A DNA stretch of 20,190 nucleotides from a virus: IMG/VR virus record IMGVR_UViG_3300030333_000108, positions 1 to 20,190 of that record. The stretch is one strand, 5' to 3'. The number at the start of each line of letters is the position of its first letter. Positions within the stretch are counted from its first letter, which is position 1. Made by a program: the position numbers and the translations under genes. The notes beneath the pieces are model-generated. The model saw nothing but the letters and a program-made list of their open reading frames with translations. It searched no databases and was not told the origin of the DNA. This document shows positions 2,223 through 10,300 of the stretch, piece by piece.

Positions 2223-5200
2223 TTATTCTAAATTAATAACAGGGTTTTGACGAGATAAATTATTAACTGTTGATTTTGCTTCTTGTAATGCCTGGTCTCT
2301 TAATTCAATTTCTTTAATGTCATTACGTTCTTGCCACTCAATTGCAGCAGGCGAATCGCTTCTACCAATAGCATCAGTTGTGATCAATTCATAATATTTT
2401 TTTAACTGAGACATCATCAGATATGCAGGCATCCTTTTTCTGTCTTGATTAGTTTTGTCTGAAACATTTAAATCAGCAGAAGTTGTTGGATCTGATTGCA
2501 TATTGTCATATATAGGATCATTTATTAATGACCTGGCAGCATCTATAAATGTTCTACCTTTACCTTTTTCGTCAAACACATGCTTTTCAATTAATGGATT
2601 TATTTTTATATCTACTAATTCTTTTTGTTCTTTTAATCTAATTCCTAAATCTTTTAAATTTACAAATACTGGCAAACTTACTCTTATAGATTTATTAGAA
2701 CCTCCTAGTTCTGCTCTTGCTACTGGCCCTAAATTAGGAACATCACCTACTCCTGGAGCAATAGAACCATAAGTGTCGTTAAATTCTTTTTGTAAATCAT
2801 CAGACATAGGTACATCCATTAATCTTTTTCTAAGTAATGGATTAGGGGGATCTAACAGTTCTAGCATTTGCAATTCTGCATATACCTTGTCATTAGGATG
2901 TAAGTGTGGGAAAAATCTATGCTCTAAATAATGAACAAGTTCCATACCAAATGGAAGCTTAATGTCAGACCCTAACCAATCTTTATCTTTATATGCACCG
3001 CCAGCTACGCCAGTAAGACCAGTTACACCAGTAGCAGCATTTTTTAATATTCTTTCTGCATTTTGCAAAACACCAATATCGTACAATTCTTCATCTTTTT
3101 TAGTTGGTTCTGCATCTCTATATAAATTAGATTTTTTTGAATTTGTTGCCCTTTCTCCACTTCTTATAATTCCTATTCCTACCGCTTGACTACCACCTAA
3201 ATAACCGAGGAAATCCATGGGCCTTCTTCTGCCGTATTGATCGCCATAAGCAAGGTCTAATATTTGTGTAACTGTGCCTAATGACGTATTTCTTCTTAAA
3301 TTTCCAACCAATGTATCTAAAATTGCACCAGCTATTGTTTTCTTGTCGTAATCACTTCTTACAGCTTTTTGACCACCATCTATTATGTCGCTTATAAGAA
3401 ACATAGTATTAATCATTGGCAGACCACCAATTAAAGGAACGCCAAACATGCTGTTAGGTTTTTTACCTTGTGCTCTTAATTCTGTAAGCCATGCAGCTCT
3501 TTCCTGTGGGTTAGTTGGGCCGTTACCTATTATCTGATCATTTGCTTTTGCAATAAGAGCTATACTCCAAATGTGCATAGCTAAAATTGCATCAGCTTTT
3601 GCACTAGCTATCTGTTCTGGATTTAATCTTCTATTGCCAGTAACATGGCCTATCCAATCATTTATAGACGAAAAACCAAGACCTTTCATATCTAACGAAA
3701 TTCCTTTCATTGGAGCAACAAGGTATGGAGCAACAGTTATGTCAAATAGTGGAGATGTCTGCCTAGCTCCATTTACAATTTCATAAAACTTTTTACCAAG
3801 AAAATTGCCTTCACCTGGAGGGCTTTGAAACCTCATATCTTGTGAAAATTCAGATGCACCTCTACTAAGGTCATCTAAATTAACAGGCCCGCCATATGTA
3901 TTAGCAACCCTAGTTTTTATTATTTCATCAGCAACAGCTCGATCATCCATTATTCCAGATGGAATGTTTTGCTCTTGTCTATATGCTTTTATTTGTGCTT
4001 CGCTTGGCTCTAGCTTATAAAACTGTTCTGCAAATTGATCATTAATCCATTTATTTATGGACTCTTCATCAAACAAACCAAGCTGCACTCCATCCCTTCT
4101 AGCTTTAAATTCAAGATCAGTTCTTAATTTATAGACATGATAACCATAACCGAATGGAGCATCTAAAGCTGCTAATGCTGAAAAACCTGGCCTAAGTGCT
4201 GCTGGATGTTTTGTTTTTCTATAAAGCCATAAACGTGCATTAGCATGTAATTCTCTTCTATATTTTTCTGGATTTATATAACTAAGCCAATTTCCTTTTA
4301 CGTTTTTTGCATCTTCTAAATCAGCAAGTCTTTTTTCTATTGGCTCATAAAATTTACCGTATGTTTCTACATTGCTGGAATAAAACATTCTGTCACCCTT
4401 CCAGGCATCCATAAATAATTCTTTTCCTGACTCTCTTACAGCCTTATATGCAGCAGCATAACCTTTCCAGTTTGCTTGCCAGGCATCCATAAAACTGCCA
4501 GATAACTTAGTGCCGTAAGGTTTGTATAAAGCATTTTTATATAAAGTATGATATGGCCCTCGTATTGCCATAGCTACGTTAGAACTAAAAGCAAGACCCA
4601 TAGTTCTTAAATTAAATAACTGAGAATCTTTTGCTAACAAGTTTGTATGTCTAAACCTGGCATCTTTTAATCTTTTAGGGTCATACCTTTTTCTTACGTC
4701 TGTTCCCTGGATTCTTATATTGTTTAGCTCCAGGTTTAATTGATCCATTGCTTCTTTTGGCCTTGTTATATTTTCAGAGGCAGCAGTAATTACTCTGGCA
4801 ATAGATTCTTCTTCTGTAGTGTCACCAATTTTTTTTCCAAGAATACCTAAAGAATCAACATAAGATTCAGCAGATTTAATATCGTCAGGTATTACAGAAG
4901 AAGCGTCATCTACTACTTCTAATTGATCTGTAAACAACCTTCCTTGCTGTGCTTTACCAGCTTTTGACCATTGGTTTCTATAAAAATCGTATGTAGCTTC
5001 ACTCATTAAAGCTACTTTGTAGGTGTTAAATGCTTTGCCTAATAATTCTGGAGGTACTTCTGCATTAGGGTTTTTCTCCATAAATATATCTATATCGTCA
5101 ACAGATTTTATGTATGCTTCTTTACCTGTATCGTGAAACCATCTAGCTCTAACTAAATCTTCTACAAAAGTTTTTTCTCCTTCCGTTAATTTATTTATTG

Positions 5201-5645
5201 CATCTAATGCTTCATTAACATTTAGTTTGCCGTCATAAGCATCAGATAACATTTGAGCACTTTTTAAAGGGTCAACATCGAGAAATGCAAACCTTCCATC
5301 TAATGTTTCTTTGCCAGCTCTAAGTAATGCCTGGGAATAATTAGCCCAATTAGCAACAACTTCATCTGGTCTATCTCTTAATTCTTTTACAAAATTAGTA
5401 GGTTGATTTTTAGGAATACTTACACCTGGTTTCTTCTCTGCTTCAATTGCCTTTTTTATGCTTTTTTGTGCTTCTAGTTCTTCTAAATATTTAGCAGTTC
5501 TAGTCATTGCATCCAGGAATGTATCGTCACCTGGTATTTGATTAGACATTTGTATTGTCTTCATCTTTGCAATTTGTTCGTCAATCTCAGCTTTTTTTCT
5601 GATTAATGATTGACGTTGTTCAAATAAATCATCACATTTAGACAT
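2223..5645 (-). CDS. Giant internal/ejection protein, second half of the gp16-like pair (1140 aa)
   Basis: Probable internal virion protein ejected with the DNA; the assignment rests on position (between the gp16-like gene and the fibre) and general character. It begins with a charged coiled-coil-like segment (residues 5-80). A Tyr/Trp/Arg-rich middle (350-510, for example FSSNVAMAIRGPYHTLYKNA) follows, then SPLFDITVAPYLVAPMKG near 631. Two hydrophobic stretches at about 685-702 and 733-755 flank the segment NGPTNPQERAAWL...GKKPNS. That arrangement resembles the large polyvalent-protein-associated (LPD) modules of phage ejection proteins; this is recognition by eye. The start at 5645 is preferred over an in-frame ATG 36 bases upstream (5681), because it sits in a TAATG with the preceding stop and lies 9 nt behind a near-perfect Shine-Dalgarno. 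No catalytic motif was seen. It could be the C-terminal half of a gp16 that is one chain in T7. Confidence 0.85.
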   Translation of the reverse strand: MSKCDDLFEQRQSLIRKKAEIDEQIAKMKTIQMSNQIPGDDTFLDAMTRTAKYLEELEAQKSIKKAIEAEKKPGVSIPKNQPTNFVKELRDRPDEVVANWANYSQALLRAGKETLDGRFAFLDVDPLKSAQMLSDAYDGKLNVNEALDAINKLTEGEKTFVEDLVRARWFHDTGKEAYIKSVDDIDIFMEKNPNAEVPPELLGKAFNTYKVALMSEATYDFYRNQWSKAGKAQQGRLFTDQLEVVDDASSVIPDDIKSAESYVDSLGILGKKIGDTTEEESIARVITAASENITRPKEAMDQLNLELNNIRIQGTDVRKRYDPKRLKDARFRHTNLLAKDSQLFNLRTMGLAFSSNVAMAIRGPYHTLYKNALYKPYGTKLSGSFMDAWQANWKGYAAAYKAVRESGKELFMDAWKGDRMFYSSNVETYGKFYEPIEKRLADLEDAKNVKGNWLSYINPEKYRRELHANARLWLYRKTKHPAALRPGFSALAALDAPFGYGYHVYKLRTDLEFKARRDGVQLGLFDEESINKWINDQFAEQFYKLEPSEAQIKAYRQEQNIPSGIMDDRAVADEIIKTRVANTYGGPVNLDDLSRGASEFSQDMRFQSPPGEGNFLGKKFYEIVNGARQTSPLFDITVAPYLVAPMKGISLDMKGLGFSSINDWIGHVTGNRRLNPEQIASAKADAILAMHIWSIALIAKANDQIIGNGPTNPQERAAWLTELRAQGKKPNSMFGVPLIGGLPMINTMFLISDIIDGGQKAVRSDYDKKTIAGAILDTLVGNLRRNTSLGTVTQILDLAYGDQYGRRRPMDFLGYLGGSQAVGIGIIRSGERATNSKKSNLYRDAEPTKKDEELYDIGVLQNAERILKNAATGVTGLTGVAGGAYKDKDWLGSDIKLPFGMELVHYLEHRFFPHLHPNDKVYAELQMLELLDPPNPLLRKRLMDVPMSDDLQKEFNDTYGSIAPGVGDVPNLGPVARAELGGSNKSIRVSLPVFVNLKDLGIRLKEQKELVDIKINPLIEKHVFDEKGKGRTFIDAARSLINDPIYDNMQSDPTTSADLNVSDKTNQDRKRMPAYLMMSQLKKYYELITTDAIGRSDSPAAIEWQERNDIKEIELRDQALQEAKSTVNNLSRQNPVINLE

Positions 5646-8600
5646 TAGATGCAACCTCCTTTTGCTACTGCTGAATCCCAACCAGCAAGCATGTTGTCAT
5701 ATTCAATCTTTTTAGTGATTAAATATTCATTTATGCGATTAGTTAGTTCGGGGATGCTTCGGCTTGTATCAGCATCCATTCTTGTTATTAATCCGTCTAG
5801 CTGTTCAGGCGTTAATTTATTTATTAATGCCTTTCTTGATAGTTCACCACTTGCTGCTAATTCAAAGACATCAACATATGTTGGATCTTTACCAAGAATA
5901 AATCTTAACTTTTTACCAAATTCATATAGATATTTTTTCATTCTTTCAAATACAGCCTTTAACCCTCCATTTTCTAGCTTGATCTTTTTATTGTTTAACC
6001 AATGACCAAAAGCTTCAGCTTGTATTTCTTTTGCTTCCATTCCAGGTTGAAAATTACCTCTAGATCGTTTAATAATGGAAGACATCTCCTCTAATGCTTC
6101 AGGAGTATTTAATGCTTCAGTTAATTTAGTGTTACCTATTTCATCTAACCAGCCTTGTACTGAGTGAAATGCTTCGTGATATGCGTCAACCCGAAAAGCT
6201 CTTCCGTTTTCTGCAACGCCTGAAACAAGTCCTCCGTAACGCTTCTCTATACCTGGATACAGAGCCAGAAATATTGAGTTCCGAGAAGCATGCTCTGAAC
6301 CACGAGGAACAAAAACGGCTGTGGGTTGACCCTCCGCCACTGCACTTAATGGATCATCAGGATTACGAGCCATAAATGTAGCAAGGTCAGGTCTCCATTT
6401 TGCTGTAGATTTAATATTTTCATCCCTACCAAACATTCTGTTCATATTTATTGTTTCTAAGTACCTAACTCTGCTTGGATCTATACCAGCAATTATTGAT
6501 GCTTCTTTCATAGCCTTACTAGCTTCTAATGCTAATTCTTGACTTTGTTCAAATATTTCTTCGACAGAACCAGTAATTCGTTGACCCCATTCTGCTAATC
6601 GGTCAGCATAACCAATATTCATTCGTTCTTTTGCTACCTGGAGTTGTCTTCTTACTAATGCTTCGTCATAACTTCCACCAGTAAAATCTACCATTGGGCT
6701 AAAACTCATTCTTGGTACTTCAAAAAAACCTTGATCGGGAACTTTAATCAACATGCCAGCAGCATTACTTGCAGCAGCACTACCAGTTTCTGCTTTTACA
6801 TAGTCTTTGACAAATTGATGTACTTTACTTCCATGTATTCTTGCCTTATCAGGATCAATACCTTGTTGTTTTAATAATGCAACGATATCATCTTCTCTTT
6901 TAGATTTTTTGGCTTTACTTCTAATAATGTATGCAACCCTATCTAGGTCATTTTCAAAATCAATTTCACCTAACCCATAACGAGGTTTCATTCTTGCAAA
7001 TTCGTTTGGTAATGTAAATCCTGTTGATTTTGCTGTTTTCTTGTTTAATTCATTTACTACTAACTCGTATTCTGCCTGGCTAACTAATCTTGTATCTATA
7101 GAACTAGATGCAGCACCTTCTAAATCTTCGATTTTTTTAAGTTCAGCTTCAAATAATTGATCACCTATTTGCTCACCATCTTTATATAGTTTTTCTATAT
7201 TTGCATCTGACACTAATTCTAATCTCATTTTTTCAGCTTTTTTCTTAGTTTCAACGTATGGAAACTCTGTACGCTTTTTAGCAATATTGTTTTTTACTCT
7301 TTCTGTTAAAGGAAAACCACCTTGCTCTAGTTCTAACTTTTTAGCTTTTAATTGATCTATAGATAAAGTAGGAACTTGTTTTCTTAGCTTATTAATTGGA
7401 TCTGTAATCATATCAAATTCGAATTTACGATTACCCATTTCCATGTCTTTAAAAAAATCTCTTTGTTTCTTCTGCTCGTAAGTCATGTTATCCCAACCCA
7501 TTTCAGCTCTTTTTTGTGCAATACGATCTGCTTTTATTGCCTCATCTAATGTCTTATGTTCGTCAGCAAGCCTTAATTCATCAGCCATTAATCGTATTGA
7601 ATCGCCATCTATCTTGCCATCTCTAAGATTATTTATAACTTTTGTAGAGTTTACGTTAGTTGCTTTAGGTGTATTTATTAAAGGTGTAGTTGGAGGTCTA
7701 ACTTCGCCATTTTGTGCTGCTTTTTTAATAATATTATTGATCATTACTCTTCTTGGAACTATTGTGTCTTCTGGTTTTGGTGTTTGCACATAGCCACGTT
7801 CATCAACAAATGTGCCTCTTATTTTTACTGTTCCATCTTTTTCAACAAAGGTTTTCTTTGCTATTTGATCTTCATTTATAGTTCGACCTCCAGGCAATTC
7901 TGTAGATGTTGGTAGCTCAGTTTGTATCTCAGGTGTCTTAGTTGGTAAAGCTGGATTATCTATTATTTCGTTTATGATCTTTGGCTGTATTCTTCTTGTA
8001 ACTACACCAACTTTTGCTCCTTCACTTATCTGTTGTGCTCCTTCGTTAAGTAATTTACTAATATTTGTGTCTGCATATTTCTCTGCATCAAATTGAGCTA
8101 TAGCAGTATCAGCAAAATTCTTTTGATTTGCAGCTTCAAATCTATCAATCTTACTACCAGCAGCTTCTAATCTATCCGCACCTCTACCAGCTCTACTGAA
8201 TAAATTACGATCCTGGACTAAATTTCTTTTTATTGATGCAGCTAATTGACCCTTTTCAATCATTAGATTTAACATCTCTGTATTACCAAACAAATCAACC
8301 TGACCACCTTCTGCTGTAGGTGCATTTTTAGCTTGTTGCAATACTTCTGAAAAAGTTGCGTCAGTAACGTCTTTTTTCTGTAAAACCTTATATGCAGTTT
8401 GCATGCCAGTTTCATCAAGACCACTACCGCCAAGTAATAGTCCTCTGTTTTGTGATATTTTGCCGTCTAATACATCCTGGTAAATATTAGGAGGTAATTT
8501 ACTTAAAGCTAAACCTTTTGCTCCTAATCCAGACTTTAATGGAACACCTATATCTGTTAATTGTTCTGGACTTGATATGCCTGATTCCTTCAAAAAGTTG

Positions 8601-10300
8601 GCAGCATCAAATGGAGTACCACCACCTTGAGCAATATTAGTTAATGCACCTTGCTGTCTAGCACCAATAGCATCTGGAGAATCTAAAAATTCAACCTTTA
8701 CTGATGGTATGCCAAGTTCTTTAGCTTTAGCTAATCTGTTATGTCCATTAACAACATAAGTAAGTCCGTCTTTTGGATCTTCCCATACCTGGACTACTCC
8801 TTCTAAATCATTATTCCATTTTTCTACACCTTCTAATGATTGACCTTTTTGTACTCCTTGAGCATCTACACCACCTTTATATTGAAATCTAACTGGATCT
8901 AATTGAATTTGATCTACATTTAAATATGGCATGCCCATTAATCTATTAGGCATTAATGTTTTACCCTCGCCTTCTAGTTTTTTAATACCATTTACTACAT
9001 CTTGCCTTGTAAATTGCTCAAACTCTTTACCAGTAGCTTCTGTTATTGCATCTGATAATTCTGTACCATTTTTAGGATTAGCAAGAGACAATAGGTTATC
9101 AGTAGGTACTTGATTTATACGAGTATTGATGTCAGTTATTGCAAGGCTATTTGTAGGTGCTGATACATCGCTGTATTTCAATAATTGCTGATCACCGTCT
9201 CCAACTCTTTTAGATATTTCTTCTATAACTTCAGGAATATTATTTTCAGCTTGGGCTACTTCTGCTATTTGCGTATCGTCTAAATTTTCTAAAGCTTCCT
9301 GTACTGAATCTGACTCTGGTGTTTGTGGTGTTACCTTTTGTGCGTTTGTTCCGTCTGGATCTACAGTTTTGGTAAAAGCGACTTTACCGCCAGCATCCTC
9401 TGTAATTATGCCGTCAGCTTTTTGCTGACTACGAAACATTCTTCTAAAGTTTGTTAGGCTTTCTGCTGTTTTTGCTCTTTTAACATTAGAAAATAAACCA
9501 CTTAATTGCTTTGCATTTAATAAACCCGCCAAACTACTAGAAATAGATAAATTAATAGGAAAAGCAGCTTGCGATGCTTCTGTCATACTCATGCCTGGCT
9601 TTGTGCCAAAATTATTTCTGTTGTCATCTAAAAATGTACTAGGCACTTCATCAATAGCATTAAGAACACCAAGTCTTCCTATTGCACCCATTAAAGATCG
9701 TGCTTTTGTAGGGTCTATAAACTGCATTGCTTTTGCTACTGCTGGAATTTGCGAACCAGCAATATTACCAACACCTCTTGTTATATATGCTAAAGCAATA
9801 TTTAACATCAATGCTGCCCGCATATCATCGCCATTTTTTTCAGCAGCCGTCATTTCTGAGGGTGGTTTAAAACCGCCAATTTTATATGCTTCTTCTACAA
9901 ATTCATCTGCACCTCTACCTATTTCATAATCTGTATAATCACCTCTTCTCATATCTGTAACAGCTTTCGTAGCGTTACCAATAGCCTTTATAGTTCCTAA
10001 TGCTGCCGTATTATCTAAATGCGTAGGTAGTGCTAAGTCAAAGCCCAGGTGCATTAAAGATCCAAATAATTTACCTCTATCACCGCCAGTTACTTTACCT
10101 TCACCCCTTAATTCTGCTTGTACTTTTTTTGTATAATCACCATAAGCTTGGTAAGCCGTTGCAGCTTTGCCTTGGGTAAAATCCCACCAGGGATAATTAG
10201 GCTTTTCTTTTTCTTTTTCTTTTTCTGCTACAAGAGTTTCTTCTTCTTCTACAGGAGGTGTAATTAACTCTTTATCTTGCTGTTCTTGATTTAATTCCAT
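5645..10300 (-). CDS. gp16-like ejection protein of polyvalent type with ParB/DdrB-like and zincin-like domains (1551 aa)
   Basis: Large internal core protein, expected to enter the cell with the phage DNA. The N-terminus is acidic with an EK run (residues 26-33); hydrophobic helices lie at about 160-210 and 245-265. Residues about 460-720 form a ParB/DdrB-like domain: RFQYKGGVDAQGV, VVQVWEDPKDG, the signature YVVNGHNRLAKAKELGIP (515-532), GALTNIAQGGGTPFDAANFL, and a closing VDLFGN (668-673). DdrB-type ParB domains of phages and plasmids carry the same string of motifs. Lys/Arg-rich coiled-coil-like regions follow (about 900-1060). Near the C-terminus, YHEAFHSVQ gives an HExxH zinc motif (H1375, E1376, H1379), with AEAFGHWL about 50 residues on offering E1429 as a possible third ligand. 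The N-terminal lytic transglycosylase of T7 gp16 is not recognisable. The start follows AGAGG by 7 nt. T7 gp16 is about 1318 residues. The functions of both domains in this phage are inference. Confidence 0.88.
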   Translation of the reverse strand: MELNQEQQDKELITPPVEEEETLVAEKEKEKEKPNYPWWDFTQGKAATAYQAYGDYTKKVQAELRGEGKVTGGDRGKLFGSLMHLGFDLALPTHLDNTAALGTIKAIGNATKAVTDMRRGDYTDYEIGRGADEFVEEAYKIGGFKPPSEMTAAEKNGDDMRAALMLNIALAYITRGVGNIAGSQIPAVAKAMQFIDPTKARSLMGAIGRLGVLNAIDEVPSTFLDDNRNNFGTKPGMSMTEASQAAFPINLSISSSLAGLLNAKQLSGLFSNVKRAKTAESLTNFRRMFRSQQKADGIITEDAGGKVAFTKTVDPDGTNAQKVTPQTPESDSVQEALENLDDTQIAEVAQAENNIPEVIEEISKRVGDGDQQLLKYSDVSAPTNSLAITDINTRINQVPTDNLLSLANPKNGTELSDAITEATGKEFEQFTRQDVVNGIKKLEGEGKTLMPNRLMGMPYLNVDQIQLDPVRFQYKGGVDAQGVQKGQSLEGVEKWNNDLEGVVQVWEDPKDGLTYVVNGHNRLAKAKELGIPSVKVEFLDSPDAIGARQQGALTNIAQGGGTPFDAANFLKESGISSPEQLTDIGVPLKSGLGAKGLALSKLPPNIYQDVLDGKISQNRGLLLGGSGLDETGMQTAYKVLQKKDVTDATFSEVLQQAKNAPTAEGGQVDLFGNTEMLNLMIEKGQLAASIKRNLVQDRNLFSRAGRGADRLEAAGSKIDRFEAANQKNFADTAIAQFDAEKYADTNISKLLNEGAQQISEGAKVGVVTRRIQPKIINEIIDNPALPTKTPEIQTELPTSTELPGGRTINEDQIAKKTFVEKDGTVKIRGTFVDERGYVQTPKPEDTIVPRRVMINNIIKKAAQNGEVRPPTTPLINTPKATNVNSTKVINNLRDGKIDGDSIRLMADELRLADEHKTLDEAIKADRIAQKRAEMGWDNMTYEQKKQRDFFKDMEMGNRKFEFDMITDPINKLRKQVPTLSIDQLKAKKLELEQGGFPLTERVKNNIAKKRTEFPYVETKKKAEKMRLELVSDANIEKLYKDGEQIGDQLFEAELKKIEDLEGAASSSIDTRLVSQAEYELVVNELNKKTAKSTGFTLPNEFARMKPRYGLGEIDFENDLDRVAYIIRSKAKKSKREDDIVALLKQQGIDPDKARIHGSKVHQFVKDYVKAETGSAAASNAAGMLIKVPDQGFFEVPRMSFSPMVDFTGGSYDEALVRRQLQVAKERMNIGYADRLAEWGQRITGSVEEIFEQSQELALEASKAMKEASIIAGIDPSRVRYLETINMNRMFGRDENIKSTAKWRPDLATFMARNPDDPLSAVAEGQPTAVFVPRGSEHASRNSIFLALYPGIEKRYGGLVSGVAENGRAFRVDAYHEAFHSVQGWLDEIGNTKLTEALNTPEALEEMSSIIKRSRGNFQPGMEAKEIQAEAFGHWLNNKKIKLENGGLKAVFERMKKYLYEFGKKLRFILGKDPTYVDVFELAASGELSRKALINKLTPEQLDGLITRMDADTSRSIPELTNRINEYLITKKIEYDNMLAGWDSAVAKGGCI
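5653..5662 (-). promoter_or_regulatory. Strong Shine-Dalgarno for the 1140-aa ejection protein
   Basis: The minus strand reads AAAGGAGGTT here, the best ribosome binding site in the window, with 9 nt between AGGAGG and the ATG at 5645. It lies inside the last codons of the upstream gene. It decides the start in favour of 5645 and suggests that ribosomes reinitiate at the TAATG overlap. Confidence 0.85.
6012..6178 (-). other. Zincin-like HExxH motif region within the gp16-like protein
   Basis: The region runs from H1375-E1376-A-F-H1379 to residue E1429 in the segment EIQAEAFGHWL. HExxH followed 45-50 residues later by a helix with Glu is the layout of a gluzincin-type metallopeptidase. Metallopeptidase modules of this kind occur in phage polyvalent proteins. 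The catalytic residues look intact, so a working protease is plausible but untested. Confidence 0.68.
8141..8923 (-). other. ParB/DdrB-like domain within the gp16-like protein
   Basis: This segment encodes about residues 460-720. The NGHNRL core corresponds to the GxHR-type motif of the ParB/sulfiredoxin fold, and the downstream GALTNIAQGGGTPFDAA and VDLFGN motifs are those of the DdrB branch found in phage and plasmid polyvalent proteins. The canonical ParB motif usually has GHHR; here the second His is Asn (GHNR), so activity (nuclease or nucleotide binding) is uncertain. Confidence 0.78.
10203..10226 (-). repeat. Hexanucleotide microsatellite coding for an EK run
   Basis: On the plus strand, TTTTTC is repeated three times with a partial fourth unit. 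On the coding strand this gives alternating GAA and AAA codons (residues 26-33, EKEKEKEK). Loss or gain of a unit would change the length of the charged N-terminal tract without shifting the frame. Confidence 0.8.

Follow-up and report, generated by a model that had tools for sequence, protein, structure and literature searches.

To leave the virion, ejection proteins have to pass a narrow tail, after which they refold in the envelope; in our sample, those made as a single chain are almost without cysteine. T7 gp16, an inner-membrane/DNA-handling ejection protein of 1318 aa encoded between gp15 and gp17, is one chain with separated hydrophobic regions and 0 Cys. According to PMC8954989 it carries an N-terminal transglycosylase, a feature that is not universal, and comprises a periplasmic N-terminal part (residues 1-228) and a remainder that starts with a membrane region at about residue 243. 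Single-chain gp16 proteins, named 'internal virion protein D', are also encoded by the pelagiphages HTVC011P/HTVC041P and the roseophages CRP-114/CRP-171, and the internal proteins of the P-SCSP phages (MPP-C cyanophages) were guessed from size and place in the account given by PMC9860041. Disulfides between different proteins have been described in virions of Agrobacterium phage Milano (PMC10491603) and of crAss001 (PMC10172136); the bonded proteins named there include those of the shell, neck, collar and tail. Neither a split gp16 nor a disulfide between ejection proteins appeared among the titles and abstract openings listed in searches of open-licence PMC papers. We consider it probable that the two giant proteins at the gp16 place of the locus analysed here, X and Y, are a gp16-type ejection protein divided into two chains, which a single inter-chain disulfide staples together where they are cut.

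Two giant genes at the gp16 position

The window, a 20,190-nt stretch of IMG/VR virus record IMGVR_UViG_3300030333_000108, corresponds to the structural operon, on the minus strand, of a podovirus of the T7-like kind. The gene order is portal (cut), scaffold, capsid, gp11, gp12, gp13-like, gp14, gp15, X, Y and fibre (cut); the gp13 slot holds a gp13/acetyltransferase-like gene, the fibre is gp17-like, and the gp15 label is based on gene place and size only. The place of gp16, between gp15 and gp17, is occupied by X followed by Y (Table 1). The Y ORF extends from 2223 to 5681(-), and its ATG at 5645 gives the 1140-aa product. The junction reads ...aaaggaggttgcatcTAATG, with the X stop and the Y start combined as TAATG. 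The Shine-Dalgarno of Y is 8 nt long, lies 8 nt from the ATG and is the longest among the ten genes that start in the window, as ranked by the longest match to the anti-Shine-Dalgarno complement; the next best are those of gp14 (GGAGGT, 6 nt) and X (GAGGT, 5 nt). An earlier note on this DNA had described two genes of 1551 and 1140 codons in the gp16 place, joined by TAATG and the strongest Shine-Dalgarno of the window, and the ORFs and this ranking confirm both points.

Table 1. Features of the X-Y locus and its neighbours, in window coordinates
Feature	Coordinates	Strand	Remarks
X, first half, 1551 aa	5645..10300	-	ends ...KGGCI; only Cys is residue 1550
Y, second half (1140 aa, counted from the ATG)	2223..5645	-	only Cys is residue 4 (MSKCDDLF)
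X/Y junction	5643..5663	-	Shine-Dalgarno AAGGAGGT within last X codons; X stop TAA and Y ATG share one base
gp15-position protein, 747 aa	10304..12547	-	without Cys
gp14-like protein, 258 aa	12547..13323	-	without Cys; no MC start, unlike single-chain relatives
Predicted X C-terminal helix (about residues 1498-1546) and GGC tail	5648..5809	-	AF2, partly pLDDT <50
Predicted Y N-terminal helix (about residues 3-34)	5544..5639	-	Cys4 at start; AF2, low confidence at ends
ParB-like CTPase fold and HTH in X (about residues 456-659)	8324..8935	-	Foldseek, VIA
HExxH...E zinc-peptidase-like motif in X (H1375, E1376, H1379; E1425)	6026..6178	-

A junction could be read in 162 locus extracts with the same order of X then Y, although many of these are re-extractions of the same contigs; 69 remained at <95% identity of the Y N-terminus (95% set), 32 at 70% and 22 at 50%. 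T7-type gp16 is a single polypeptide, whereas the protein was in two chains in 69/69 pairs. The split also occurs in the cultured phage S-SRP02. A chance or assembly error as its origin is ruled out because the arrangement is common to a cultured phage and many contigs. When annotated phage records were searched by tblastn, Y was found in one record and X in 19. The best gp12 records were those of MedDCM S37-C6 (71.8%), S-SRP02 (65.0%), S31-C1 (56.6%) and S38-C3 (55.7%), with all others among the best 60 of 2507 at <=36%, and 4/4 of these phages have the two-gene arrangement. In a gp12 tree of 15 phages, in which the S37-C6 sequence is incomplete at the end of its record, the five split phages formed one group with support 100/100. 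One gene is present at the gp16 place in HTVC011P, HTVC041P, CRP-114, CRP-171, T7, P-SSP7, Syn5 and RHEph01.

Within the split group, the window gp12 sides with that of S37-C6 (98/95), yet for X and Y the window belongs with the S31-C1 type (window versus L027, L001). The X-Y pair therefore seems, on these sequence relationships, to have been exchanged as a unit between phages.

Correspondence of X and Y to parts of single-chain gp16

Y is homologous to the main body of single-chain gp16. HHalign of 43 Y sequences against 63 single-chain marine gp16 sequences (pelagi-/roseophage type, not de-duplicated) gave P 99.8 and E 1.8e-29, with Y columns 98-1086 aligned to gp16 columns 343-1169 of 1216; every HHalign E-value quoted here is for one pair. 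The match indicates that Y is the C-terminal body of gp16 and that its start would fall near gp16 column 245. By position, and as an analogy only, a cut near this column may separate the same two regions as those described for T7 gp16. The T7 protein itself gave no significant HHalign match with Y (P 5.2), and X showed no significant homology to it. Sequence searches of the PDB returned nothing useful, whether run with X and Y themselves or with profiles built for these two and for gp16. The structure alignment of Y covered 37/42 Y proteins (the window and 36/41), and the fold search of Y yielded no informative PDB match, the cyanophage A4 ejectosome chain 9k2v_A (Z 5.0) being within noise.

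A fused form is present in two cyanophages. The single chain of the Prochlorococcus phage P-SCSP1g (2563 aa) contains, in order, gp16-N at residues 155-293 (P 86.7, E 4.4e-6; seven control comparisons <=P 0.8), an X-like core at 446-1317 (P 100, E 4.4e-49) and gp16-C at 2035-2528 (P 97.8, E 1e-12). The 1596-aa protein of P-SCSP2 contains an X piece at 450-563 (P 98.1) and, after it, gp16-C at 678-1587 (P 99.1); the latter region also matches Y directly (P 77.3). Y and P-SCSP1g gave no direct HHalign match, and their link passes through single-chain gp16. From the order of these segments, X and Y correspond, at the level of profile similarity, to consecutive parts of a single chain that is present elsewhere. 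The P-SCSP chains differ from the X-Y pair in being fused and lacking Cys, and that of P-SCSP2 has only an X piece of ~110 residues. The gp16 proteins of HTVC011P/HTVC041P and CRP-114/CRP-171 likewise are one chain with 0 Cys, and no X-core match was found in them. The deep forks of the tree favour neither the splitting of a fused ancestor nor the reverse.

The earlier proposal of a split gp16 position is supported by way of marine gp16 and P-SCSP1g, where X-like and Y-like parts are successive; neither protein matches T7 gp16 significantly, and the two are not simple halves of gp16. The main C-terminal body of single-chain marine gp16 is covered by Y alone, most of X is additional sequence that varies, and X alone does not account for all of gp16, since the P-SCSP1g chain holds X-like and then Y-like parts.

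The genes that follow the giant gene in P-SCSP1g and P-SCSP2 were considered as Y candidates and set aside as fibre-like; they are related to each other and to the window gp17-like fibre (L002:14333-17572; L003:11576-14887). If the gene numbers of PMC9860041 follow the locus tags, our analysis argues against the guess in that paper, which places P-SCSP2 g31 among the internal virion proteins.

X ranges in length from 924 to 1861 aa, those of S-SRP02, S37-C6 and S38-C3 being shorter than that of the window. Window-type and S-SRP02-type X share one stretch of ~100 residues (P 99.2) and the terminal Cys. The N-terminus of X gave no significant match to gp16-N in profile comparisons (P 0.7 and 1.8, against at most 0.8 for controls). 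A weak full-length hit of S-SRP02-type X (P 23.8) was lost with N-terminal profiles, as was a BLAST hit between S31C1 X and CRP114 (E 0.002).

A ParB-like region in the window X was recognized by Foldseek (E 1.7e-4, prob 1.00; 7bnr_A) and by VIA (Z 10.4, 180 aligned, rmsd 4.6; 6t1f_D) in a model of moderate confidence. The motif GHNR, which we take to bear on CTP binding/DNA clamp closure in ParB/Noc-type CTPases, occurs in 12/17 window-type and 0/22 S-SRP02-type X; another G-x-NR is present in 12 of those 22. The HExxH motif (1375-1379) and Glu1425 are invariant in 17/17 window-type X, and HExxH is absent in 22/22 of the S-SRP02 type. No zincin fold appeared among the Foldseek/VIA matches listed for X, where this region is modelled at low confidence. 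Neither X nor Y gave a Pfam hit to a lytic transglycosylase at E<=1, a profile search that may miss a distant one. At a Kyte-Doolittle cut of 1.2, the window has three hydrophobic segments in Y and one in X, and the strongest segment of S-SRP02 and S38C3 is in X. The earlier note had assigned enzymatic-looking domains to the first protein and membrane-proximal-looking modules to the second; the ParB-like fold and HExxH of the window X and the three segments of its Y agree with this, but 'enzyme here, channel there' is not a rule of the group because the motifs are missing in a subgroup and X as well as Y has hydrophobic segments.

Other phage proteins, with lengths of about 400-2700 aa, also contain the ParB-like region of X (L049-L098). 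This region matches PHROG 21, whose label 'portal protein' is perhaps misleading for this domain.

X could instead be added ejected cargo (a DNA clamp and a peptidase) placed between gp15 and gp16, with Y alone being gp16 and the terminal Cys serving as a tether for the cargo, a role compatible with a disulfide. Such an addition would account for the coverage of the main gp16 body by Y, for the variable length of X and the little that its two types share, and for the mismatch between X-N and gp16-N; that gp16-N, X-core and gp16-C follow one another in one chain in P-SCSP1g, and that Y begins at about the end of gp16-N, argue against it, and we regard it as unlikely, if by no means negligible.

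Paired cysteines at the cut ends

The last Cys of X was located 1-3 residues from the C-terminus in 69/69 non-redundant split pairs (1, 2 and 3 residues in 52, 11 and 6 pairs, respectively). Y contained exactly one Cys in 69/69, at residues 3-6 in 68 and at residue 46 in one. Both terminal Cys were present together in every pair, and pairs with only one numbered 0. The exceptional Y, from L293 (9731-13237), is extended at its N-terminus by 42 residues, with much Ala, Gly and Val, and its Cys is at the helix start rather than at the N-terminus. In the first set (8 pairs, one single X and one single Y), the one Cys of X was the last or last-but-one residue and the one Cys of Y was residue 3-4 from the ATG. 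The rule was followed in 43/43 pairs with a readable junction, first set included, and among 38 further pairs at <95% identity to earlier ones X conformed in 38/38 and Y, at residues 4-6, in 37/38. Y rows without a junction (3/46 in the earlier set, 6/44 in the later set) were excluded from these pair counts; for some locus scans one of the two peptide patterns included the Y N-terminal Cys, and the patterns of the other scans were without it. The called X ORF had an extra Cys near its start in 3/69 pairs; X ORFs were called mechanically, and at the four loci inspected every extra Cys was upstream of a later in-frame ATG. The same split and the same Cys rule are found in S-SRP02 ORF46/ORF47 and in MedDCM S31-C1, S37-C6 and S38-C3. 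What is constant across the group is the cut together with the paired Cys.

The X and Y cysteines are encoded by TGC and TGT (37 and 6 in X, 34 and 9 in Y; 43 pairs), and the gap between the genes is -8, -1, +1, +2 or +3, so that each of the three relative frames is represented. Because both codons are used and the overlap geometry varies, it is the amino acid that is kept and not a nucleotide signal; a constraint on the Cys codons from the overlapping Shine-Dalgarno is ruled out by these features and by the L293 extension.

The ten single-chain proteins compared (eight gp16 and the two P-SCSP chains) contained 0 Cys. The same was true of 41/41 complete non-redundant single-chain gp16 and, with partial sequences counted, of 51/52, the exception being a partial one. 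These gp16 proteins amount to 1 Cys in 58,909 residues versus 175 in 48,975 for neighbouring ORFs (L163-L242). X and Y resemble T7 gp16 in being otherwise free of Cys, and differ from it in their two terminal Cys.

The gp15 proteins of single-chain relatives had 0 Cys in 40/40, and Cys is almost wholly avoided in gp15 and gp16 of these relatives (L163-L242). Their gp14 has one Cys, at residue 2 (MC...), in 35/35 complete non-redundant sequences (L163-L242). In the first split set gp14 was without Cys in 32/33 and gp15 in 37/37; at the later split loci L280, L299 and L284 the gp15-position ORF has one. Loss of the gp14 Cys2 accompanies gain of the X/Y Cys pair.

Candidate disulfide between X and Y

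A heptad-like hydrophobic pattern was detected in two 30-residue stretches, one that precedes the GGC-type tail of X and one that follows the Y Cys (22 pairs, 50% set). The pattern beside both Cys was reached by 0/200 shuffles; two control stretches were reached by 89 and 139/200. AF2 models had mean pLDDT of 66 and 63, with the ends lower. The simplest arrangement of these elements is a helical hairpin that is cut in its loop and has one Cys on either side of the cut, in which the helix at the X end would pair with the helix at the Y start.

In the arrangement that we favour, Y is the conserved C-terminal body, whose counterpart in T7 gp16 is the membrane- and DNA-handling part, and X would be the N-terminal part, to which variable cargo has been added: in the window, a ParB-like DNA-clamp fold and a zincin-like motif. 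The single Cys at each cut end would form an inter-chain disulfide once virions exit the reducing cytoplasm, or in the periplasm, and would restore one continuous chain across the hairpin loop. X and Y, presumably both virion proteins, could then pass out through the tail as a single thread, which would fix their order and keep their numbers equal. The bond would resemble those of Milano and crAss001 in linking different proteins of the particle, and would differ from those described there in joining the parts of a split internal ejection protein.

Alternatively, X and Y may dock non-covalently by their terminal helices, with the Cys forming homotypic X-X/Y-Y bonds or a shared metal site at the oligomer axis. 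The heptad pattern on both sides of the cut would suit such docking, and several X or Y Cys could be close together, given the tetrameric gp16 of the T7 core described in PMC8954989; we nevertheless think this rather improbable, as both Cys are at the cut ends, never one alone, and other Cys are nearly absent from the neighbouring ejection proteins. A programmed frameshift or readthrough that yields an X-Y fusion, so that the split is only apparent, is very improbable: the genes overlap closely and one relative frame accounts for 38/43 pairs, with Y in frame with X in 2/43, but no common frameshift joins X and Y because the gaps cover all three frames, and Y has its own strong Shine-Dalgarno.

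If the X-Y disulfide exists, host redox might also time genome entry or channel disassembly. The bond would close only after the reducing cytoplasm is left and would open in the reducing cytoplasm of the host, freeing the DNA-handling Y from the periplasmic X; we hold this extension to be possible though doubtful.

Cysteines at the cut ends of the largest ejection protein offer a direct test of the mode of travel (one thread or separate chains) and of a 1:1 stoichiometry, as well as of the stages of the route at which conditions are oxidising or reducing. The annotation of this cultured cyanophage lineage is corrected as well. In S-SRP02 and the MedDCM phages, X and Y carry the labels hypothetical or 'chromosome segregation ATPase-like' and are not annotated as ejection proteins; by position, ORF45, ORF46 and ORF47 of S-SRP02 are gp15, X and Y, whereas PMC8790148 names ORF45 an amidase, probably a lysis gene, and labels ORF46 'chromosome segregation ATPase-like'. 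A word search of that paper returned 'mass spectrometry' 0 times. The gp15-position 'amidase' of S-SRP02 (L025:8904-11810) had no Pfam hit at E<=0.1, and the gp15-position protein of L013 (2731-5382) matched an M23 peptidase with E 6.6e-7.
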